A stretch of 59,722 nt of DNA from Thermoplasmata archaeon (lineage in GTDB: Archaea; Thermoplasmatota; Thermoplasmata; Thermoplasmatales; Thermoplasmataceae): positions 1-59,722 of the forward strand of contig JAKAUW010000062.1 in the NCBI GenBank assembly GCA_021817455.1, in the 5' to 3' direction. Positions 8,659-59,722 of this stretch are shown piece by piece. The notes under the pieces are model-generated. The model worked only from the letters and a program-made list of their open reading frames with translations. It did not search any database and was not told the DNA's origin. Every line of letters begins with the position of its first letter. The first letter of the stretch is position 1. The translations under genes were made by a program, and so were the position numbers.

Positions 8659-10392
8659 ATGAAGGTCCTTGTTTTTGCAAAGCAGATCCCTGATGTTAAC
8701 CAGGTAAGATTTGACCCGCAGACCAACAGAATTGTTAGGGAAAATGTCCCGCTCTCCATGAACTCATTCGACAGGAAGGCTGTTGAGGAAGCGGTGAGGA
8801 TGAAGGAAAAATTCGGCTGGGTAACTGCGGTTGCATCCATGGGGCCGCCACAGGCAAAGGAAATACTCAATGACTCCCTGCGCATGGGCATTGACGATGC
8901 ATATCTCATTACAGACAGGAAGTTTGCTGGCTCTGACACACTGGCAACTGCAAAGATCCTTTCAGCGCTGGTCCGTAAGCTGAAGCCTGATCTAGTTCTC
9001 ACGGGCAAGTATTCATTGGATGGCGAGACTGCACAGGTCCCACCTGAGATTGCAGTTTTTTCCGGGTACGCTTTCAAGTCATCAATTTCCAAAATAGAGA
9101 TAGGGGAAAAGGAAGGAACACTCAAGGTTGAGCATGAGAACGAGAGGGGAACCGAGGTTTACACCATTCCACTGCCTGCTGTCCTATCTGTGAGCGAGAA
9201 GATCAACAGGGCAAGGGCCGTGAAGCCGGACGAACCTGACAGGACAGAACAAGTGAAGGAACTGAACTCCTCCGATCTTGGCCTGGCCATAGTAGGAAGT
9301 GAGTACAGCCCCACTGTAGTTACAGGGACTTCAAGCCTGGAGAGTACCAGGAAGGTGGAAATGATTCCCTTTGACGAAAGGGCATACCTAAAGGTTTATG
9401 AAATCATAATGCAGCACAGGAAGCTTGGCAGCCAGAGTGAGAAGATAGCCCTCAGGGCACCGGATGAAAGCGCCCCGATAATTCTTGGAGTTGCACTTGA
9501 TGAGCCTTCCCTAGGTGAAGAGGTTTCAACCAAGATTTCTCAGCTTGCGGATAATCACAGCCTCCTGGCAGTGGTTTTCGGGAACATTGAACCGTCCATA
9601 GCTCAATTGGTTGGGCATGAGTATTACTTCTATGATACACGCAGCGTCGAGGCATTCACTGATGCACTCACCGATTTTATTAAGGAGAAAAAGCCGCGAT
9701 ATGTGGTCTTCCCGTCCACCGTGAAAGGCAGGGAAGCAGCAGGTACCATTGCTGCAAGACTTGAGGCCGGACTGACTGCCGACTGCGTCGATCTGGAGAT
9801 AAAGGACTCAAGGCTCATCCAGTATAAACCGGCATTTGGTGGCGGCATAATTGCGGAAATCTATTCAAAGACGGAACCACAGATGACAACTGTACGGCCT
9901 GGAATGTTCACTGCCATTCCCCCCTCGAAGCCTCCAAGGGTTTTCGACATCGAGCACTCTCCGAGAACCTTGTACCAGAAGCATGAGGAGAATCCGGTTC
10001 CACCCCAGTACGTACCCCTTGGATCCAGGGATGTTGTGGTGGGATTCGGCAGAGGCGTGAAAAAGAGGGAAGAAGTTAACGAACTGTTAAAACTTGCAAA
10101 TCTGCTTGATGCTTCCCTGGGTGCCACCCGGCCACTAGTGGATATGAATTTTATCCCAAGGCAGCAGCAGATAGGCCTCACTGGTGTATCAATTTCGCCA
10201 GGAGTCTATCTTGACCTTGGCATATCAGGCCAGGCAAACCATGTGGTGGGCATAAGGTATGCTGGAAAGATAATATCGGTGAACTCTGATGCTAATGCGC
10301 CAATATTCCAGTTTTCAGACTATGGGATAGTAGCTGACCTCCATGAATTTGTGGAAGGGTTCACAAAGTTCCTGGAAACTCAGAAGCCGTAA
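8659..10392 (+). CDS. etfBA: Electron transfer flavoprotein, beta-alpha fusion
   Basis: 577 aa. Residues 1-245 are an EtfB domain: KVLVFAKQIPDVNQ at the start, GPPQAKEILNDSLRMGIDDA, and the DGETAQVPPEIA motif near residue 118. Residues about 275-577 are an EtfA domain. Its C-terminal FAD-binding part is intact, with LVDMNFIPRQQQIGLTGVS and YLDLGISGQANHVVGI, then the VNSDANAPIFQFSDYGIV signature near residue 545. ETFs move electrons from acyl-CoA or other dehydrogenases to a quinone reductase. Here both subunits are on one chain, in the order beta then alpha. No FixC/FixX or acyl-CoA dehydrogenase gene is adjacent. The gene has its own promoter. Confidence 0.93.
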   Translation: MKVLVFAKQIPDVNQVRFDPQTNRIVRENVPLSMNSFDRKAVEEAVRMKEKFGWVTAVASMGPPQAKEILNDSLRMGIDDAYLITDRKFAGSDTLATAKILSALVRKLKPDLVLTGKYSLDGETAQVPPEIAVFSGYAFKSSISKIEIGEKEGTLKVEHENERGTEVYTIPLPAVLSVSEKINRARAVKPDEPDRTEQVKELNSSDLGLAIVGSEYSPTVVTGTSSLESTRKVEMIPFDERAYLKVYEIIMQHRKLGSQSEKIALRAPDESAPIILGVALDEPSLGEEVSTKISQLADNHSLLAVVFGNIEPSIAQLVGHEYYFYDTRSVEAFTDALTDFIKEKKPRYVVFPSTVKGREAAGTIAARLEAGLTADCVDLEIKDSRLIQYKPAFGGGIIAEIYSKTEPQMTTVRPGMFTAIPPSKPPRVFDIEHSPRTLYQKHEENPVPPQYVPLGSRDVVVGFGRGVKKREEVNELLKLANLLDASLGATRPLVDMNFIPRQQQIGLTGVSISPGVYLDLGISGQANHVVGIRYAGKIISVNSDANAPIFQFSDYGIVADLHEFVEGFTKFLETQKP

Positions 10393-46982: not shown

Positions 46983-48182
46983 ATGACGTCAAAAATAAGG
47001 AAAATCGATATTCTGGAACTTGGCGAAAAGGGCAAGGAGATATCAAGCCCGTGGAGTTCCACCATCCTTCTTGTGAAGTTGACATCCGAGGATGGCCTCG
47101 TTGGATATGGGGAAGCACCAACTACACTCATGACCCTCCCGGTCAGGGAAAGCATGGAAGAGGTTAAGAGAGTCTTCCAGGATGCTGATTTCTTCAATGT
47201 GGAGAGAAATGTCAAGGAATTCTACAGACATTCGTTCTACCTTTCCAGGTCCATGGAAGCAACATCTGCACTGAGCGCATTCGAGATAGCCAGCTGGGAC
47301 CTTATAGGAAAATCTGTCGGGGAACCTGTTTTCAAGCTTCTCGGCGGAGAATACAACAAAGAGTTGCGTGCATATGCAAATGGCTGGTACTCAGACTGCA
47401 TTACACCCGAGGACTTCGTGAAAAAAGCCAAGGCTGTTGTCTCCAAAGGTTTCACGGCAATGAAGTTCGATCCATTCGGAAACAATTATGATCAGCTCTC
47501 AAGGGAGGGCTTGGAAAATGCAGTGGATATTGTCGGTGCCCTCAGGGAGGAGTTTGGCGACAGGGTTGATCTGCTCATCGAATGCCATGGCAGGTTTTCC
47601 ACTAAGGCTGCCATAGATGCAGGTACAGCCCTGGACCAGTTTGAGCCGCTCTTCATGGAGGAACCTCTGCATCCTGAGCTAGAGATGGCCCTTCCAGAGG
47701 TCAAACGGTATGTGAGGACACCCATTGCACTTGGAGAGAGGCTGCTTAACAAGGCAGATTTTGCAAGATACATTTCCCAGGGCATGGTGGACATCATTCA
47801 ACCGGACCTAACCAACTCACTGGGCATCCTTGAGGCAAAGAAGATTGGCGCCATAGCGGAGTCCATGGGAACCCCCGTGGCTTTCCACAATGCTTTTGGG
47901 CCAATACAGACCGCGGCCACGCTGAACGTTGACAAGACCCTTCCCAATTTCCTCATACAGGAAAGTTTTGAAGCATTCTGGCCAGACTGGAAGCGAAATC
48001 TTGTAAAGTCCGGCTACAAGCTGGAGAACGGCAGGTTTACACTCTCTGGAAAGCCAGGAATAGGTGTTGAAGTAGACGAAAAGATTGTAAGCACCAATGC
48101 TGTTGAGGGCATGGAACCCTTTGATCCCAAGGAACCCCCATGGGTTGTCTCAGGGACCTTCAGGGCCCCAAATGGAAGATGA
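46983..48182 (+). CDS. Gluconate/galactonate dehydratase, enolase superfamily
   Basis: 399 aa. It looks like the archaeal gluconate dehydratase of the non-phosphorylated Entner-Doudoroff route: VYANGWY-type AYANGWYSDCITPEDF near residue 135, the metal ligands at LIECHG and FMEEPLHPE with ALGERL, and the VAFHNAFGPIQTAA segment near 305. The Sulfolobus enzyme is close by eye. It would dehydrate D-gluconate or galactonate to the 2-keto-3-deoxy acid. Start ATG 46983 is supported by a TATA box. The next gene begins 1 nt beyond its stop. Confidence 0.88.
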   Translation: MTSKIRKIDILELGEKGKEISSPWSSTILLVKLTSEDGLVGYGEAPTTLMTLPVRESMEEVKRVFQDADFFNVERNVKEFYRHSFYLSRSMEATSALSAFEIASWDLIGKSVGEPVFKLLGGEYNKELRAYANGWYSDCITPEDFVKKAKAVVSKGFTAMKFDPFGNNYDQLSREGLENAVDIVGALREEFGDRVDLLIECHGRFSTKAAIDAGTALDQFEPLFMEEPLHPELEMALPEVKRYVRTPIALGERLLNKADFARYISQGMVDIIQPDLTNSLGILEAKKIGAIAESMGTPVAFHNAFGPIQTAATLNVDKTLPNFLIQESFEAFWPDWKRNLVKSGYKLENGRFTLSGKPGIGVEVDEKIVSTNAVEGMEPFDPKEPPWVVSGTFRAPNGR

Positions 48183-48183
48183 T

Positions 48184-49083
48184 ATGACAGAATTCCCGCA
48201 GGAATCTTCAGAACCTAAGTTACAGGAACTGATGGAACAGAAGAGGAGGCTTCAGGAGGAACTGGCTGAGACCCGATCCCTGTTGGAGAAGGTGGAGACC
48301 TCCATACGTGAACTCACGCAGTCTACCCTCCAGGGCGACCCTGATGGAAATGGCAATTCGCTTGTTTCCTCAGGCTTCACAAGGCTTGATGACCTTCTCC
48401 ACGGAGGTTATCCGAGGGCATCGAACATCCTTCTCAGCGGTCCGCCATACAGCTCCAAATTCAATGTGACACATAGGTTCATTGTATCTTCCCTGCAGGA
48501 ATCACACCCGGTAATTGTTGTGTCACTGGACCAGCCTATTTCTGACATTAAGGCAGATCTTGCAGCAATGGGCATTTCTCCTGATGAATTTGAGGAGAGC
48601 GGACACCTGAAGTTCGTGGATGCATATTCCAAAAGCATTCAGATGGAGAGCAACGACAAGAATGCAGTTGTCCTTGACAATGTTGCAGTGATCAGCAATT
48701 TCCTGAAAGCCATGGACCAGATCTGTTCCACTGTTCTTACAAAGATGGGGAAATACAGAATGGTTTTCTTTTCCCTGACTGCATGGATCACGCAGTCCTC
48801 CGAGGACAAGATGTTTACCAAGGCTCTGCAGCATTTCTCCCAGCGGAGGAAGATGGAGGGCTCGACCACCCTCTACCTCATAGAGGACGGAATATTCCAG
48901 AGGAGCCTTTATGAAAGCATGAACTACTTCATGGACGGGTCAATAGAATTCAGGAGCGAATCATCAGTGGAATATCTCAGGGTCAGGGGGCTGAAGGATG
49001 TCCAGTCCAGGGGCTGGATAGAAGTTGTTAGAAGCAACAACAGCCTGACTCTTGGTTCCTTTGAGCTTAAGAGGATCAGGTAA
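48184..49083 (+). CDS. RecA/KaiC-superfamily ATPase-like protein with a degenerate P-loop
   Basis: 299 aa. Residues 10-55 form a coiled coil rich in Glu and Leu (KLQELMEQKRRLQEELAETR). A RecA-like core follows. It starts with SGFTRLDDLLHGGYPRASN, a KaiC/GvpD-type opening, but its Walker A is SGPPYSSKFNVT, lacking the usual GxGK(S/T). ATP hydrolysis is therefore doubtful. IVVSLDQPISDIKADLAAMG and VVLDNVAVI could be the Walker B region. ATG 48184 follows the dehydratase stop by one base; ATG 48172 (MEDDM) is also in frame and overlaps it. It may regulate, or be coupled to, the sugar acid enzyme. Confidence 0.65.
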   Translation: MTEFPQESSEPKLQELMEQKRRLQEELAETRSLLEKVETSIRELTQSTLQGDPDGNGNSLVSSGFTRLDDLLHGGYPRASNILLSGPPYSSKFNVTHRFIVSSLQESHPVIVVSLDQPISDIKADLAAMGISPDEFEESGHLKFVDAYSKSIQMESNDKNAVVLDNVAVISNFLKAMDQICSTVLTKMGKYRMVFFSLTAWITQSSEDKMFTKALQHFSQRRKMEGSTTLYLIEDGIFQRSLYESMNYFMDGSIEFRSESSVEYLRVRGLKDVQSRGWIEVVRSNNSLTLGSFELKRIR

Positions 49084-49088
49084 TTTTC

Positions 49089-50843
49089 TCAGTATGCCAG
49101 TACCGCAATGAGCATCATCACTAGGAAAGCAGCGATCATGTATATCATGTACCATCCTATTGAGCTGTTCATAACCCTGAGGGTGATGAATTTGCTCACT
49201 GCCCTGTAGCCCTTTCCAATATCGGTCATTATGAGCCAGAACACATCTATGACAGTTACAGCATTTCCGAATGCCCCGGTCTTGGTCCTGAGAACTCTCC
49301 TGAGCATCAGGCGAATGTTGTTTGAATAGGCATATGAAGTATATGGATCTACTTCAACAGTGCCGCCATTCCAGACCGGTACATCCCTGAGCCTTGGTTT
49401 CCTGAACAGCGCATAAGCTGCGATGGAGAAGGCTGTGATGAGTATAACAACATAATCAGGGGAAATGAGCCCGAAAACAGCAGGCCCAAATCTGGAAGTA
49501 ATCATGAACCCATTGAACACAAGGACTCCCGGAATGCCAGAAATGAAGGTGCCTGAAACTATGAAGATAGAAATGGCAAAGAGGAATATGAGCAGCAGGC
49601 CAATGCCGGAAATTACGGCATGATTGGGTGGCTGCTTCTTTTCCAGTTTTCTGTGAAAAAGGTTTCCGAATGCCAGGATCTTCATCATGGAGCCGGTAGC
49701 CATGCCTTCACCCAGTGCAATTACAGAACCAATCACTATTGCGCTCATTCCTGGAACCCCGCCTGCATAAGCCTCCATGAAGAAAGCTTCAAGAAGCATC
49801 CAGGTGGCAAGTCCCCCTAATGTTGGGAAGAGCCCGGACAGTGACATGGTTATGAGCATTGTTCCCACGCGTTGCGTATAAGATGTTGGTTGATCACTTT
49901 CACCGAAGTATTCCCCGGGTGAGTTTCCGATGGAAAAGAATAGCCCGGTCTTCGAAATGGCGTGGGAAAGTGCAAATATGATTATGGTTGCGAAAATGAA
50001 CTGCTTCAGGACCACTTCGGATGCCACGAGGTAGAGCCCCATTGCCGAAAGTATGGCAGCATTATTCTCAATGGTGCTGAAGCCTGCAAGCATTTTCATG
50101 TTTTCAGAAATATATGCATATATTGAGGCAAACAGGATTGAAATTGAGCCAACTGCAAGGAAGAGGAATCCAATCCAGGTTACATCCGGGCTGATGAGAA
50201 TCATCCTCATTATGACAAAAACGCCCATGAGCGTCATTGTTGCACTTAGAGCCGCAGAGGCATTGGCTGGGGCATTTCCATGTGCAATGGGGAGCCATTC
50301 GCTGATCATGAAGGGCGTCATGCCCATTTTTATGAGCGCCCCAAGGGAAATCAGCAGAAGGGGGCCAAAGGACGGCACCTGAGTGAAGAAAAGTGTACCG
50401 GTTGCAAAGAATGCGAAGACTGCACCTGCTATTATTAGGATTGTGCTGAACTCGCTGAACATCATGAAGGTAAAAGCGGGAGCACTCTCTTTCTTGTTCA
50501 TCCCCACAATTACGTATGCGGGCACAGACATTGTTTCCCATCCGGTTATCAGAAGCAGGTAGTTTGTGGACTGCAGAATGATAATCATGCCCATTATCAT
50601 CAGTGCCATTGAGGAGGCAAGCCACTTTCCATAGTGCCGGTCATATGAAAGGGAATAAAGGGACACAAGAATCCATACAAGCGAGGCTATGAGAACAAAA
50701 TATGACATCTGGTCTGATGGGTTGAATCCAGACCAAATATAGTAGGCAGAACCGGCAAGGATGCCAATGTACGCCCCCTTCTTCTGGAAGAGCCCGATCA
50801 TGGCGGAAATCCCAAGAATTGCGATTGCTATGTATGAGAACAT
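49089..50843 (-). CDS. Ehr/Hyf-complex antiporter-like subunit (HyfB/NuoL type)
   Basis: 584 aa with about fourteen to sixteen transmembrane helices. The proton-translocating core is visible: TGWETMSVPAYVIVG near residue 100, MGMTPFMISEWLPIAHGNAP near 205, and later SHAISKTGLFFSIG with the conserved lysine. The extra C-terminal part is long, like HyfB and NuoL. It should pump ions when the peripheral part oxidises a donor. It is the last gene of the six-gene operon and follows the fused Fe-S/NuoB gene with no gap. Confidence 0.85.
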   Translation of the reverse strand: MFSYIAIAILGISAMIGLFQKKGAYIGILAGSAYYIWSGFNPSDQMSYFVLIASLVWILVSLYSLSYDRHYGKWLASSMALMIMGMIIILQSTNYLLLITGWETMSVPAYVIVGMNKKESAPAFTFMMFSEFSTILIIAGAVFAFFATGTLFFTQVPSFGPLLLISLGALIKMGMTPFMISEWLPIAHGNAPANASAALSATMTLMGVFVIMRMILISPDVTWIGFLFLAVGSISILFASIYAYISENMKMLAGFSTIENNAAILSAMGLYLVASEVVLKQFIFATIIIFALSHAISKTGLFFSIGNSPGEYFGESDQPTSYTQRVGTMLITMSLSGLFPTLGGLATWMLLEAFFMEAYAGGVPGMSAIVIGSVIALGEGMATGSMMKILAFGNLFHRKLEKKQPPNHAVISGIGLLLIFLFAISIFIVSGTFISGIPGVLVFNGFMITSRFGPAVFGLISPDYVVILITAFSIAAYALFRKPRLRDVPVWNGGTVEVDPYTSYAYSNNIRLMLRRVLRTKTGAFGNAVTVIDVFWLIMTDIGKGYRAVSKFITLRVMNSSIGWYMIYMIAAFLVMMLIAVLAY

Positions 50844-51467
50844 TCAGTCACCCCTTGCTCTGGCCAGTGCCTCAAGTATGGTATATGGGGATGGCGGGCA
50901 ACCCGCTATCTCCACATGATATTTTTCACGCCCAATGGGGGATTCGCCTATGATTCCACCGGAAATGGAGCAGGCCCCCATGGATATGATCAGCTTTGGC
51001 TCAGGCATTGCCTCATATGCATTCTTCAGGGCTTCTTTCATCCCATCGGTATGTACTCCCATGACCACTATGGCATCCGCATGCCTGGGGGAATTTGTTA
51101 TGAATATGTTCAGCCGGTTTGCATCATACTGCGGATCAAAGATTGTTTCCAGCTCAACATTGCAGGCGCCACAAGCGCCGCTGTCAAGCTTGTATATGTA
51201 AAATGACTTCTTCAGGACCGGCTCTGTCCTGTTCACCTTGAATATATCCTGCTTTCCTGTTGGGGTGTATCCCGGTTCACAGAACCTGCAGAATATGCAT
51301 CTTCCTGCATCCCATTTTCCGTCCTTTATGGCCTGGGTAGGGCAGTATGGCTCCCCGCTTCCTTCCATTCGGGATGGCCTCTCTGGCGGTTCTTCAGGCG
51401 GCGCAAACGGGAATCTTTCCGTCTTCTTTCCTTTCCTGATGCCTTCGCCAAACCAGAAGTTGCTCAT
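50844..51467 (-). CDS. Fused ferredoxin + NuoB/HyfI-type small subunit
   Basis: 207 aa. C42 (YCPTQAI) with C57, C60 and C63 (CIFCRFC) give one [4Fe-4S] ferredoxin cluster. Then the NuoB-like domain has C99 and C102 (SGACGACNVELE), C166 (GACSISGG) and C190 (AGCPPSPY), the ligands of the N2/proximal cluster. In most group 4 hydrogenases and complex I these are separate genes (HyfH/NuoI and HyfI/NuoB). The ferredoxin half here keeps one cluster instead of two. ATG 51467 overlaps the large subunit stop by 4 nt; an upstream extension in the same frame overlaps the other gene and was rejected. Confidence 0.85.
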   Translation of the reverse strand: MSNFWFGEGIRKGKKTERFPFAPPEEPPERPSRMEGSGEPYCPTQAIKDGKWDAGRCIFCRFCEPGYTPTGKQDIFKVNRTEPVLKKSFYIYKLDSGACGACNVELETIFDPQYDANRLNIFITNSPRHADAIVVMGVHTDGMKEALKNAYEAMPEPKLIISMGACSISGGIIGESPIGREKYHVEIAGCPPSPYTILEALARARGD

Positions 51468-52633
51468 TGAATAACCACCCCCAACTCTGATATCCATATT
51501 CCAAAGCTTTCCCAGTTGAAGTGGAAATCTGTGAATATATTGCCCTTCATGGACTCCCGGAATGCCCTTATGTTCAGGGTGCCTGGAGAAACATGCCACA
51601 GATCCTCTATGGATCCGTTTTTCAGCTGGACATAATAAAATATGTCTCCCTGCGGGCTTTCCAGCCTTGCGCATCCTTCGCCGCTCCCTTTAGGTATTTC
51701 TGTCCTCACTGTTTCCTTCAGGCTCCCCAGCGATGCAATTATGTCAATTGAGTTGAGGACCTCCTCTCCCCTGACGCAGAATCTCCCGAAGCAATCTTTC
51801 TCTTCCCTGACTACTGGATAGAAAGGAGTCTCCATGTAGGGAAGCTCCCCCCGCACTGTCCTTGAATCATACCTCAGGCCGGAGGCCCTTGCAGCAGGGC
51901 CTGTCAAAAGGCTGTCTTTGGTAACCCCATTGTTCTGGAGCCTGTTTAGGAATATCTTGGACTCAAGCAGCCCCGCGTAGAGTCTTTGGAACTCCTGGCC
52001 GACTTCGCTGAGCTTTTCATTGATCCCTGAACTGGAAACTCTTGAACATCCAGGCGCATTGGCCCCGAAGAAGAAGCGATGCCCTGCAACTCCTGAAATG
52101 ATCCTTGAAACCTTCTCCCGAAGGTAGCCCAGTTGGTTCGTGGGAACGCCAAAACCAGCGGGTTCGCATAGCCTCTTTATGACTTCAAGGTTGCTCCTGA
52201 TGCGTTCAAGCTCGAGCTGAAGAATCCTGGCTTTCTGCACTTCCACAGTAACCTCCAGGTCTAGCGCGTCCTCAACAGCCATGAGAAAAGACAGTGAGTT
52301 GCTTGCCGCATGGAAACCGTTTATCCTCTCAACCAGTAACAGAGCCTCTCCAATGCTTTTGCCCTTAAGCTTCAGGGATCTTGCCTTGTAGCTTGGATCA
52401 ACTGCAACAGAATTGATCAGTTCTCCAGGGGTTGTGAGGGTAATGCCAACTGATTCCATCAGGCCGCCGGTTGAGGGACCGTACTGGAAATTGAACTCTC
52501 CCGGGGCCATTTTGTGCACTGGCAAGTCGTTATAGCCATCGGGTGCAATTTCTGATATGCTATCTGCGTAAACATGATATTTGCCCCAATGGCCAATGTA
52601 TCTTCCCGAAGGTTCTCCAAATTTATAGCGCAC
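51464..52633 (-). CDS. Ehr large subunit (NuoD/HyfG-like) without [NiFe] ligands
   Basis: 389 aa. The family match is FQYGPSTGGLMESVGITLTT near residue 50 and the motif that in hydrogenases reads RxCGxC. Here it is VERINGFHAASNSL (about 101-113): there is no Cys. At the C-terminus the DPCxxCxxR ending is replaced by FGIWISELGVVIQ, so all four nickel-iron ligands are gone. It must then act by electron transfer, as in complex I, or with an unknown catalytic site. There is no NuoC domain. It overlaps the neighbouring genes by 4 and 11 nt. Confidence 0.82.
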   Translation of the reverse strand: MRYKFGEPSGRYIGHWGKYHVYADSISEIAPDGYNDLPVHKMAPGEFNFQYGPSTGGLMESVGITLTTPGELINSVAVDPSYKARSLKLKGKSIGEALLLVERINGFHAASNSLSFLMAVEDALDLEVTVEVQKARILQLELERIRSNLEVIKRLCEPAGFGVPTNQLGYLREKVSRIISGVAGHRFFFGANAPGCSRVSSSGINEKLSEVGQEFQRLYAGLLESKIFLNRLQNNGVTKDSLLTGPAARASGLRYDSRTVRGELPYMETPFYPVVREEKDCFGRFCVRGEEVLNSIDIIASLGSLKETVRTEIPKGSGEGCARLESPQGDIFYYVQLKNGSIEDLWHVSPGTLNIRAFRESMKGNIFTDFHFNWESFGIWISELGVVIQ

Positions 52634-53969
52634 CAGTAACCACCACCACGTAAATTACCCCTATAAGCAGAGGTATTGCAGAAGAAAGGAGTGCCAGGCC
52701 CGACATGACAGAGTCCTCTTCCCCTTTCTTTTCAGCCACTCCGAGAAACACCATCCTAGTTACGTTGTAGTTAACCGATATGAATGCAGCCATCACAAAG
52801 AAAAGCAGCAGAACCAGCTGAACATAGTAATGGATGGAAAACAGAGAATAGAAAATAAGGAATTCACCGAAGAATGTGCCAAAGGGTGGAGTGCCGGTTA
52901 CTGCGAAGGAAGACATGAGCAAGGCGCTGGATGTGACTGGCATTGATTTCCATAGCCCGTGGATTTCCTCAATCTTCTTGGCACCTGTGTATCGTAGGAT
53001 GCCACCTGATGAGTAGAAAGCGCCAGCCTTCCCGAAACTGTGCGAAAGCAGGAGCAGGAGGGCACCAAAGAGTCCATATTCACCTCCAACAGCCAGCCCT
53101 ATAAGGGCCAGGTTCATGTTTTCCATGGTTGAATAGGCAAACATCCTCTTGTACCTGGTCTGGTATCCAAGGAACAGGGACGCTGCAATTACAGATATTA
53201 CAGCTGCCCAGACAAAAAGTTCTCTCATGGGGTCTATCTCATAGATCCTGTAGAGCACATACAATGCAGTTGGCAGGAGTACTCCCGAAAACATGGCACT
53301 TATGGGTGATGGGGCTTCACTATGAGCGTCTGGAAGCCATGTGTGCACGGGAAATACCCCTACTTTTGTCCCAAAGCCAACGAGGGCTATGGCAACTGCT
53401 ACATTCAGCGTGAGTGAAGGAAATACCTTCATGGAAAGGATTGATGAAATCTCCAGGGTCCCGATTGAATAGTAAATGAGGATTATGGAGATGAAGGCGA
53501 ACGTGACCCCTGCTGAAACTATGACTATATATCTCCATGTAGCCTCAGCTGAAGTTTCATTCTTTTCAGTCATCAGCAGCAGTGCTGAGGATATTGTTGT
53601 GGCCTCAATTCCCACCCACATCAGGCCAAGGTTGTTTATCTCGAGGGAAAAGATCATAGATGTGGTGAAGAGGGCCAGAAGGAGGTTAAACAGGTTCTCC
53701 CCGATCCAGATTTCCTGTTTCCTGAAATAGCTCTTTGAGTAAACCTGGGAAAGAAGGTGGACTGAGGTTACCATCAGGATGAAGACCCATGTTGTGAAGT
53801 CGACATAGAATGTCCCGGAAAAAGGAGTGAACTCGTACAGGAACAGTGCTATGGCAACATTTGCCAGGGAGAGGGCATTGTCTAGCCTTGGTACCCGGGA
53901 CAAGTAACCAAGGTATGACAGCACTGGCAGCAAAAGCGTTAGGATGATGAGAATGAAGGCTGTATTCAT
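52623..53969 (-). CDS. Ehr/Hyf-complex antiporter-like subunit (HyfF/NuoN type)
   Basis: 448 aa with about fourteen transmembrane helices. The typical core is present: MWVGIEATTISSALLLM (the Glu-bearing helix), FGTKVGVFPVHTWLPDAHSEAP near residue 215 (the Lys and HTWLPDAH loop), and LSHSFGKAGAFY. It is a second ion-translocating chain. It overlaps the preceding gene by 4 nt and the following large-subunit gene by 11 nt. Confidence 0.87.
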   Translation of the reverse strand: MNTAFILIILTLLLPVLSYLGYLSRVPRLDNALSLANVAIALFLYEFTPFSGTFYVDFTTWVFILMVTSVHLLSQVYSKSYFRKQEIWIGENLFNLLLALFTTSMIFSLEINNLGLMWVGIEATTISSALLLMTEKNETSAEATWRYIVIVSAGVTFAFISIILIYYSIGTLEISSILSMKVFPSLTLNVAVAIALVGFGTKVGVFPVHTWLPDAHSEAPSPISAMFSGVLLPTALYVLYRIYEIDPMRELFVWAAVISVIAASLFLGYQTRYKRMFAYSTMENMNLALIGLAVGGEYGLFGALLLLLSHSFGKAGAFYSSGGILRYTGAKKIEEIHGLWKSMPVTSSALLMSSFAVTGTPPFGTFFGEFLIFYSLFSIHYYVQLVLLLFFVMAAFISVNYNVTRMVFLGVAEKKGEEDSVMSGLALLSSAIPLLIGVIYVVVVTGAL

Positions 53970-54613
53970 CCCCTCAACTCCTCCACCCTTTCATGGGTGA
54001 ACTTTTCAACGACCACAACAGATGATATTACAACCAGGGCCAGGACATCCAGGAATACACTGGCCTCGATGAGAAGCGGTATTGGCAGAAGGAATACTGC
54101 AAAGAGGACTATTGCATTCTCCTCCTCAATGTACCCCATTATCTGGGCATATGTGGTCCTCCTGGATGCTATGAGAAAGAGACCCTGGAAGAAGAGAGCC
54201 AGCGGAAATACCAGGATTCCCTGGTTCCCGGTGATTGACTCAGTCTTAATGCTGGAAAAGACAACCGAGTATACAATCAGGACTGCGGTTAACACAAACA
54301 CCAGGCTTATGATGAACAGATAAGCAACACTGACTTGCTTCTCGTGGAGGTGAACCTGATCCTTTCTTATCCCTTTCTCCAGGAAGAATGTAATGAGGAA
54401 ACCCCTAAGGACAACAATGAGGACTGCAAGGATTATGAAATCAGAATCATCTGTAATAATCCCCATTATCACGGATATGACTGCCAGCAGGATTGACTGG
54501 ACCAGCTGCCCCCGGATCATTGGCCTTATGAACTCCTGGCCCTGCATGTAAAATGCGGTGATTAGGATTAGGCTTGATAGTGGGAAAAGAAGCACTTCGC
54601 CAATTGCGCTCAT
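53966..54613 (-). CDS. Ehr/Hyf-complex HyfE-like membrane subunit
   Basis: 215 aa with six to seven transmembrane helices. MGYIEEENAIVLFAVF near residue 160 matches the GxEE(x)NA signature that NuoK shares with the HyfE family. It probably forms part of the ion path at the membrane arm. It overlaps both neighbours by 4 nt. Confidence 0.82.
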   Translation of the reverse strand: MSAIGEVLLFPLSSLILITAFYMQGQEFIRPMIRGQLVQSILLAVISVIMGIITDDSDFIILAVLIVVLRGFLITFFLEKGIRKDQVHLHEKQVSVAYLFIISLVFVLTAVLIVYSVVFSSIKTESITGNQGILVFPLALFFQGLFLIASRRTTYAQIMGYIEEENAIVLFAVFLLPIPLLIEASVFLDVLALVVISSVVVVEKFTHERVEELRG

Positions 54614-55563
54614 GCAATCACCTCAGTGAATATCAGGAACAGAATTGAGAATGTGAATGCAGTGGCAAGGTAATCGAGGACCCTGAATAACCTGAGCTTT
54701 GCCAGAGTGGTTTCTACAATAAGCACTATCCCGATGAGCAGCAGCCATTTCGCAAACATAACCGGGATATCCAGCAGGAACCATGGCGAAGAGGAACTTA
54801 GACCCCATGGGACGAGGAATACATTTAGGAGAACTGAACCGAGCAGGTATTGCTTTATGTAACTGTTCCACTTGTTTATTGCCAGCAACTTGCCGCTATA
54901 TTCGTAGTTAACGGCTTCATCTATCATTCCAAGCTCCTGCAGGCCTGCGCTCTCAAGTGGAATCCTGCCTGTTTCATACAGGAACAGCATGAAGAAAGCC
55001 AGCGTGGAGAAAATGTGGACGATTGAAATATTCTGAAGTGAATTGGATGCCAGGAACTGGTTTGTGGTGTATGGGTTGTTGGTTCCAGTAATCAGGGAAA
55101 CAGCAAAGAACACAGTTATTAAAGTACCCTCTGACAGAAAATTGAAGGACAGCATTCTAGACACGCCCAGGGCTGAATAATTGCTATTGCTTCCAAAGGC
55201 AGCAGCCATTTTCACGAAAGCGGCAAGAGAGAACAGAATTGCTCCCCCCAGGAAATCAGCCGAGGCCGTAAAGTAGATTGGGGCAGGTATGAGAACTGGG
55301 ATTATGAGGGAAATGAGGGAGTAAACCCCAAATGCAACATATGGGGCATAAATGAAAATTATGCCAGAATTTGATGGCCTGAGGGTCTCCTTTCTGAGGA
55401 GCTTTGCGAGATCATAATAGGGCTGGAATATGCTGGGACCTTTCTTCGACTCCACAATGCTCTTTGCTCTGTGAAAAATTCCAGCAAACAGCGGTGATAA
55501 TCCCACAACGAAGAAATACTGCAGGAGCGTTTCAGTGAACGTTACATAGTCTATTCTAACCAC
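54610..55563 (-). CDS. Ehr/Hyf-complex HyfC/NuoH-like membrane subunit
   Basis: 317 aa with about eight transmembrane helices. The NuoH/HyfC signature is visible in HRAKSIVESKKGPSIFQPYYDLAKLLRKE near residues 31-59, read in parts (ESKKGPSIFQPYYDL is the quinone-site-type loop). The conserved acidic loop LYETGRIPLESAGLQELGMIDE is near residue 195. It anchors the peripheral arm. It is the first gene of the operon; the start codon is GTG at 55563. Confidence 0.85.
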   Translation of the reverse strand: MVRIDYVTFTETLLQYFFVVGLSPLFAGIFHRAKSIVESKKGPSIFQPYYDLAKLLRKETLRPSNSGIIFIYAPYVAFGVYSLISLIIPVLIPAPIYFTASADFLGGAILFSLAAFVKMAAAFGSNSNYSALGVSRMLSFNFLSEGTLITVFFAVSLITGTNNPYTTNQFLASNSLQNISIVHIFSTLAFFMLFLYETGRIPLESAGLQELGMIDEAVNYEYSGKLLAINKWNSYIKQYLLGSVLLNVFLVPWGLSSSSPWFLLDIPVMFAKWLLLIGIVLIVETTLAKLRLFRVLDYLATAFTFSILFLIFTEVIA

Positions 55564-57510: not shown

Positions 57511-57900
57511 TCAGACTATTCCTTCAAAATAGCCAAAATGATTTTCGAAAATTTGCATGAACAATTCAGTTTGAAATACACGGATTCGGACAGCCCCATC
57601 CGTTCTATGTCCGGATTCATGCATCTGCGCCAATTCCGTCATTTTTCCACTTCCTTGAAATATCTCTCTAATACGGGATCTGACCACCTCCGCAACTTCA
57701 AACTGTGAGACATGCGTATAGCGTTGAGTGGTCTTTAGTGACCTGTGGCAGAGATGAATTTGGACCATGCGGATATCAATTGGTTTTGCTCCGCGGTAGC
57801 TCCTTAACAATCAAAGCATCTCCTCGCTTTAAATATCCACATAAGTCAAGTAAAGCCTCCATCGCGATGTCAGGAGTGCCCGAGACGGGAATTTAATTTC
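57511..57900 (-). pseudogene. Decayed tyrosine recombinase (integrase) fragment
   Basis: The recognisable part is at about 57650-57780. It reads IDIRMVQIHLCHRSLKTTQRY, then THVSQFEVAEVVRSRI: the C-terminal end of a tyrosine recombinase, with the HxxLxH...YTHV spacing. The N-terminal domain and catalytic Arg are missing. Immediately upstream another frame (57805-57900) encodes PDIAMEALLDLCGYLKRGDA, ending at a stop, so the gene is frame-shifted or rearranged. The right-hand copy of the tRNA repeat lies inside it. No active recombinase is expected. Confidence 0.7.
57591..57618 (+). repeat. Candidate attachment site: imperfect copy of the tRNA-Pro 3' end (right copy)
   Basis: 24 of 28 bases match 56421-56448. 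It begins with CAGCCCCATC, the end of the tRNA. The 1.17-kb interval between the copies holds the HEPN/MNT pair. The repeat is within the recombinase remnant. Confidence 0.6.
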
Positions 57901-59102: not shown

Positions 59103-59722
59103 CTAATATTTCTTTCCATAATAACAGTTAAGATAGGCTGCTTTGAACTTATCCACACCCCCCCCAACCCATTTTCTCATTTCTTTGCCATCATATTCCT
59201 CAAATGGGATATTAACGTAATGCTGGTATTGGGTGGCTGTTGAGTGTCCTTGACTCAATGCAATCTCCAGTGCCTTATAGGGGTAATAGAACACTAACCA
59301 TGACTCCCAGGTCTTCCTGAACGTCTTATTGTTGACCGGTGGTCCCTAAAGGATCCTTTTCGATAATCGCCTCAACTTCGTGTCAAATGCAGGAAGTTCC
59401 GGCAATGGGTGCGAAGCCTGGAATATATCGGAAATGAGAGTCTTGCCGATATCACTCAACCTTATAGCCCTTTCCTTCTGTTTAGCCTTGACCTTCATCA
59501 TTGAACCCCGTGGAAGGTAGATGAATATGCCATCCAGCCAGTCTGGATTCTCCCTGAATCTCTGCAATTCAGCAGACCTCATTCCTGTTACAAGGAGAGA
59601 AGTGCAGATCCTTTTCATGTTAATGTCCAGGTTATCTCTCAAGGTCTCCCACTCAGATGGCCTGAGGGTCCTGACTTCAAACTTTTCTGAAGGTCTTACA
59701 ATGGCTCTCAAAATGCCTGTTA
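59103..59722 (-). pseudogene. Second tyrosine integrase, interrupted by an in-frame TAG (runs off the window)
   Basis: The N-terminal portion (59346-59711) has the catalytic-domain start RTLRPSEWETLRDNL and the arginine motif LVTGMRSAELQRF. At 59346-59348 there is a TAG. The reading frame then continues without shift (GPPVNNKTFRKTWESW and ALSQGHSTATQYQHYVNIPF, the HxxYxxH...Y ending). So the gene is complete apart from one nonsense codon. The 5' part lies outside the window, since the frame is open to 59722. Confidence 0.75.

Follow-up and report, generated by a model that had tools for sequence, protein, structure and literature searches.

Background

Complexes of the Ehr kind, which are related to the group 4 [NiFe] hydrogenases and have no [NiFe] ligands, are known in bacteria and archaea, and their function is unproven (PMC6349859, PMC10432482, PMC7894505). 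For the acid-mine plasmas, one study describes group 4 "hydrogenase" genes without both Ni motifs and suggests another function for them (PMC3750248). These "putative group 4 hydrogenases" of Ferroplasma and of A-, E- and G-plasma form a hydrogenase-4-type cluster of the same gene order as the operon that is the subject of this text: six genes on contig JAKAUW010000062.1 of an acid-loving Thermoplasmata archaeon, a stretch of 59,722 nucleotides that we call the window. The plasma genes very probably encode the same complex.

We confirm that the operon encodes a six-gene complex of the known Ehr kind. Our proposal for its function is more tentative, and we would give it somewhat less than an even chance: a proton-pumping ferredoxin:quinone oxidoreductase of the Ehr kind, the acceptor being a quinone or a similarly hydrophobic molecule.

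The six-gene operon

The window belongs (as contig C82) to an archaeal bin of 1.76 Mb, 93% complete. Among named relatives, Thermoplasmata/Thermoplasmatota bins are closest to it, and Acidiplasma aeolicum is more distant. Six overlapping or abutting open reading frames (ORFs) run on the minus strand from 55563 to 49089:

54610..55563, minus strand: HyfC/NuoH/MbhM-like membrane anchor, 317 aa, GTG start (Pfam NADHdh, 4.5e-31)
53966..54613, minus strand: HyfE-like membrane subunit, 215 aa (match to NCBIfam "hydrogenase 4 membrane subunit" at 4e-9, which misses the cut-off)
52623..53969, minus strand: HyfF antiporter-like subunit, 448 aa (NCBIfam "hydrogenase 4 subunit F", 578 bits vs a cut-off of 437)
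51464..52633, minus strand: large subunit, NuoD/HycE/MbhL-like, 389 aa, GTG start (Complex1_49kDa, 4.4e-20)
50844..51467, minus strand: fused ferredoxin-small subunit (HycF/NuoI-like plus HycG/NuoB-like), 207 aa (Oxidored_q6, 4.2e-21)
49089..50843, minus strand: HyfB antiporter-like subunit, 584 aa (NCBIfam "hydrogenase 4 subunit B", 647 bits vs a cut-off of 460)

The start of the small subunit is the ATG at 51467, in a 4-base ATGA overlap with the stop codon of the large subunit; the mechanical ORF start lies at 51674. Pfam matches above cut-off (NADHdh, Proton_antipo_M twice, Complex1_49kDa and Oxidored_q6) and the two NCBIfam models above cut-off, those for subunits B and F, support the roles given. 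No NCBIfam model reaches its cut-off on the large or small subunit and no Pfam family matches the HyfE-like subunit, whose position in the operon is identical in all relatives. The operon thus combines large and small subunits of group 4 type with HyfB-, HyfC-, HyfE- and HyfF-type membrane subunits. The initial annotation, made from the letters alone, had proposed this group-4-like order, with two antiporter-like subunits and no NuoEFG among the six ORFs, and it stands on all three counts.

About 40 related genomes of Thermoplasmatales and other Thermoplasmata have these six genes in identical order and lack the same cysteines, which rules out chance and sequencing error. A second copy of the complex in one relative (G007, L040 7639-8921) has its large subunit in two frames (305 and 141 aa), which may reflect a frameshift, a pseudogene or a sequencing error.

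The missing [NiFe] site

The large subunit reads VERINGFHAASNSL and ...DFHFNWESFGIWISELGVVIQ, and CxxC is absent from both ends. The sites concerned are:

52292..52333, minus strand: L1 site VERINGFHAASNSL, residues 101-114; N105 and H108 occupy the expected CxxC cysteine positions
51485..51496, minus strand: L2 site, W380-E383, which replaces the C-terminal CxxC in an alignment of 72 relatives

None of the four ligand cysteines is present in the window and at most one in each of the 72 members of its Cys-less clade; the large subunit L052, which has the complete set of ligands and so comes from a true hydrogenase, was excluded. A single cysteine in a ligand column occurs in only three of the 72 (L034, L038 and L039), while all ten control hydrogenases have the full four. 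The commonest residues in the four columns are Asn, His or Phe, Trp, and Glu or Asp; at the L2 site the first position is mostly Trp and the second is Glu or Asp in 72/72.

The maturation gene HypD was found neither in the window's genome (G000) nor in any sampled genome of its family f1, and it is absent from 36 of the 40 genomes that carry the complex. The four carriers that do have it all belong to family f5, which also has a true Cys-bearing MBH; among the f5 genomes that hold such an MBH with full ligands beside the Cys-less complex, most have HypD. With no L1/L2 ligands, and no HypD found in its 93% complete bin, the complex does not belong to the group 4 [NiFe] hydrogenases proper (Hyf/Hyc/MBH/Ech). 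One may still ask whether the hydrogenase is functional after all and an assembly error, or the use of another reading frame, conceals its ligands, given that public models call its membrane subunits "hydrogenase 4". We give this next to no credence and reject it, since 72 relatives concur, none with a ligand set, and HypD is absent from every sampled family f1 genome. The claim of an Ehr complex without [NiFe] ligands is therefore borne out.

An apparently shortened electron wire

In the small subunit, CP-x(13)-CxxCxxC precedes the NuoB domain, so that the fusion to a one-cluster ferredoxin, also part of the initial annotation, is correct. Two sets of predicted cluster ligands follow:

51279..51344, minus strand: single ferredoxin cluster, C42, C57, C60 and C63 (N6b-like)
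50898..51173, minus strand: proximal cluster ligands C99, C102, C166 and C190; hydrogenase-type CxxC, not the CC of complex I

All eight cysteines are invariant in 16 diverse sequences. The proximal CxxC motif has its full length and aligns without a gap to MbhJ, and an AlphaFold2 model of the subunit has a pLDDT of 91.4.

Which cluster was kept can be read from relatives. The fused, two-cluster ferredoxin part of L137 has CDLCGLCVPACPTSAI...DAGRCLWCGDCQSACPKDAI vs CPTQAIKDGKWDAGRCIFCRFC in the window; the first three cysteines and the last are lost, and the fourth is kept together with the second CxxCxxC triplet. We take it from the Thermus structure of NuoI that the four kept ligands bind N6b, which adjoins N2, and the four lost ones N6a. 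The fused small subunit thus appears to retain exactly one ferredoxin cluster, N6b-like and beside the proximal one, the outer N6a-like cluster having been lost; the wire would have been shortened from its entry side.

The fusion is common to the whole family. Relatives differ in the number of clusters. Members of other Thermoplasmata families (L137-L141, L143 and L144) have a related Cys-less complex in the order HyfB-C-E-F-large-small with a two-cluster ferredoxin. This is fused in most of them; in L144 it is a separate gene (9043-9378) between large and small, plausibly the state before the fusion. At the other end, two Micrarchaeota bins (L092 and L093; small subunits at L164 674-1258 and L165 8642-9151) have lost every one of the four ferredoxin cysteines; of the cluster ligands only the proximal ones remain, and an N-terminal WFLKGL is kept. 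The series therefore runs through separate two-cluster, fused two-cluster, fused one-cluster (the window) and none. Small subunits L043, L044 and L047 of family f5, which mostly also has a true MBH, carry degenerate and differently spaced ferredoxin cysteines. For the window's nearest relative (L006, L070, L075 and L103) the cluster label "none/deg" is an artefact, the pattern having matched an earlier site.

A large-subunit tree (quick method, 69 rows, unrooted) splits into Nuo, Cys-bearing hydrogenases and one Cys-less group (SH-aLRT 99). The latter divides in two: one half comprises forms that have two clusters or lack the ferredoxin, and in the other, which contains the window (support 100), nearly all forms are one-cluster. 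As the tree is unrooted, the probable direction of the series, loss rather than gain, is read from the similarity to the two-cluster ferredoxins of other superfamily members. The Micrarchaeota pair is placed among Thermoplasmatales rows inside the window's half, which suggests transfer from Thermoplasmatales, or else there is a binning error; a gene neighbouring the pair's complex has only weak matches within that phylum.

Separate complex I and possible partners

Another contig of the bin (C25, L003) holds a separate 11-subunit operon, nuoABCDHIJKLMN, without EFG. Hence the six-gene complex is a second machine and not, as would have told against the initial annotation, the cell's only complex I. 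NuoA, C, J and K, absent from the six-gene operon, are present in this separate one.

NuoF occurs in only 22 of the 40 genomes with the complex. The 18 carriers without it include single-contig, nearly complete genomes (G014, G017, G028 and G030), and this excludes NADH via NuoEF as a general donor. 2-Oxoacid:ferredoxin oxidoreductase (POR) is present in 61/61 genomes. No partner gene is conserved beside the operon beyond six close relatives, other apparent clusters looking like reverse-strand ORFs of the operon itself, and this fits a diffusible donor. The operon genes are not mentioned in a transcriptome paper on Acidiplasma.

On contig C76 (L073 1510-5819), a NuoE/NuoF-like fusion protein is encoded next to an FdhA-like one that has an Fe-S N-terminus, possibly an NAD(P)-linked formate dehydrogenase (FDH); a transposase-like ORF lies nearby (L073 7099-7737). 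The presence of this pair in the window's genome speaks for a module in which the complex receives its electrons from an FDH/NuoEF-like unit. Such an FDH-Ehr module was proposed for Margulisbacteria (PMC6349859) and suggested for Geobacter, where Ehr subunits are abundant on formate (PMC7894505), and we count both reports in its favour. However, the 18 carriers without NuoF, single-contig genomes included, argue against it, and according to PMC3750248 the complex is found in G-plasma, which has no FDH, and is missing from I-plasma, which has one. There is also no linkage to the operon, and the ferredoxin cluster that was lost is the outer, entry-side one. In our opinion such a module is improbable here; FDH/NuoF as an obligate partner is rejected by the distribution across carriers.

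Two further observations concern the surroundings of the operon. A KaiC/RadA-like ATPase (window 48097-49083) is convergent with it, an adjacency kept only in the genus and the nearest relatives. Near the contig end, ORFs at 57511-57810 and 59346-59711 resemble pieces of a tyrosine recombinase (integrase).

Constraint and the possibility of a transporter

The operon is under purifying selection, with between-species ratios of nonsynonymous to synonymous substitution (dN/dS) of 0.02-0.11. Compared with the nearest relative, the four membrane subunits have 0.02-0.05 and the large and small subunits 0.09-0.11. In each of six genome pairs, conservation among the Ehr proteins is lowest for the large subunit (tied with the small subunit in G003), and among the Nuo subunits it is highest for NuoB (tied with NuoI in G005). 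Constraint is thus inverted: the large and small subunits of the Ehr complex diverge faster than its membrane arm, opposite to Nuo in the same genomes. This computed pattern may mean a changed substrate, a relaxed redox role or a species-specific partner.

The inversion is what one would expect if the pump were losing its redox role, the membrane arm acting mainly as an Mrp-like ion or proton transporter and the hydrophilic arm as a structural or regulatory cap. The decrease of ferredoxin clusters from two to one to none across relatives, and the acidic habitats from which many carriers come, are in line with this as well. On the contrary, the proximal and N6b-like cysteines are all invariant in the diverse aligned set, and dN/dS of both soluble subunits is still no higher than about 0.11; hence we regard it as rather unlikely for the complex. 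A related and broader idea, doubtful at present, is that the Thermoplasmata Ehr complexes as a whole show a stepwise dismantled electron wire with weaker constraint on the redox arm, so that a redox pump would be turning into an ion transporter that takes in hardly any redox energy, or none.

The emptied chamber and the proposed function

The large and small subunits of Pyrococcus MBH are the best sequence matches in PDB (large subunit: 6cfw_L, 6e-41), and the MBS structure 6u8y is also among the matches of both. The predicted folds of both subunits match E. coli formate hydrogenlyase best (large subunit: pLDDT 90.3, top Foldseek match HycE). One residue of the chamber is of particular interest:

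52454..52456, minus strand: E60 of the large subunit, invariant, aligned with MBH Glu21 at the position of Nqo4 His38

MBH Glu21 is a proton donor that occupies the place of Nqo4 His38 (PMC11228991). In the membrane arm, E122, K202, K314 and E369 of HyfF and E103, K172, K298 and E352 of HyfB, the predicted pump residues, are invariant in 30 sequences each, and E145, E210 and E221 are among the conserved acids of the HyfC-like subunit in 27 relatives.

MBS is likewise without quinone residues and a [NiFe] site (PMC7684303) and belongs to the same superfamily, and one could imagine that here, too, polysulfide receives the electrons of ferredoxin directly at the proximal cluster. However, MBS has no Glu21, and its proximal motif is shortened, with three cysteine ligands and one iron freed for polysulfide (PMC7684303). 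The window's motif is full-length and gap-free against MbhJ, with four invariant cysteines and the glutamate E60 kept. The full-length motif argues against this mechanism, which we consider unlikely.

In the ferredoxin:quinone oxidoreductase that we propose instead, a low-potential one-electron donor, most likely ferredoxin reduced by 2-oxoacid:ferredoxin oxidoreductases, would dock on the small subunit. Electrons would then pass through only two [4Fe-4S] clusters, the N6b-like and the proximal one, into the chamber emptied by the loss of the [NiFe] site. The acceptor reduced in this chamber would be hydrophobic, most likely the membrane quinone, with E60 protonating it, and this redox step would drive proton pumping via the two antiporter-like subunits. 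The sequences themselves show the architecture, the lack of metal ligands and of HypD, the two-cluster wire, the intact pump residues and the purifying selection. We infer ferredoxin as the donor from the universal POR, the patchy NuoF and the lack of a linked partner gene, and the quinone from the vacated chamber; the direction and the coupling are equally inferred.

Several points weigh against this proposal. The complex I quinone residues Nqo4 His38 and Tyr87 are absent, with GPSTGGLMES and ERINGF in their place. Constraint within the complex is weakest on the large and small subunits, which is odd for a catalytic arm. POR also feeds other ferredoxin consumers, so that its universal presence counts little, and we found no biochemistry on any archaeal Ehr complex in open-licence papers.

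Comparison with known systems

The Ehr complexes of Geobacter, Margulisbacteria, Nitrospira and ammonia-oxidising archaea, compared by description only, are likewise of group 4 type, with antiporter-like subunits and without [NiFe] ligands. The HyfB-last order and the one-cluster fusion were not found described for these complexes in the open-licence literature, and the available part of PMC3750248 describes neither the fused single-cluster small subunit nor the cluster series or the constraint pattern. What we consider new is therefore the one-cluster fusion, the cluster series and the inverted constraint, for none of which a description was found in open-licence papers, together with the invariant MBH proton-donor glutamate.

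Compared with Hyf/Hyc, the window has equivalents of HyfB, C, E, F, G, H and I, and E. coli formate hydrogenlyase is the top structural match. However, [NiFe] ligands and HypD are missing, HyfH is fused to HyfI and has one cluster, and the operon is without HyfA/HycB and FdhF. Since public models label the membrane subunits "hydrogenase 4" in organisms that lack the hydrogenase maturation gene, this misnaming deserves to be flagged.

With Pyrococcus MBH, the best sequence match, the complex shares the CxxC proximal cluster and a glutamate at the Glu21 position; it differs in that it lacks a [NiFe] site, its operon does not include the genes of a Na+/H+ antiporter module, and it has two clusters rather than three. 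MBS/Mbx and complex I (Nuo/Fpo) resemble it in having no hydrogenase site. Of the features of complex I, the window's complex lacks His38/Tyr87, the adjacent CC ligands of N2, in place of which it has CGAC, and NuoA, C, J and K.

Evolution of the complex I superfamily led from hydrogenases to quinone reductases, and few intermediates are known. The family described here kept the hydrogenase-type proximal cluster and the proton-donor glutamate, lost the metal site and apparently shortened its wire at the entry side. Its members form a natural series on which one can study how long a wire such a pump requires, and a cultured carrier, Acidiplasma aeolicum (L088), makes the question of donor and acceptor of an Ehr complex testable.

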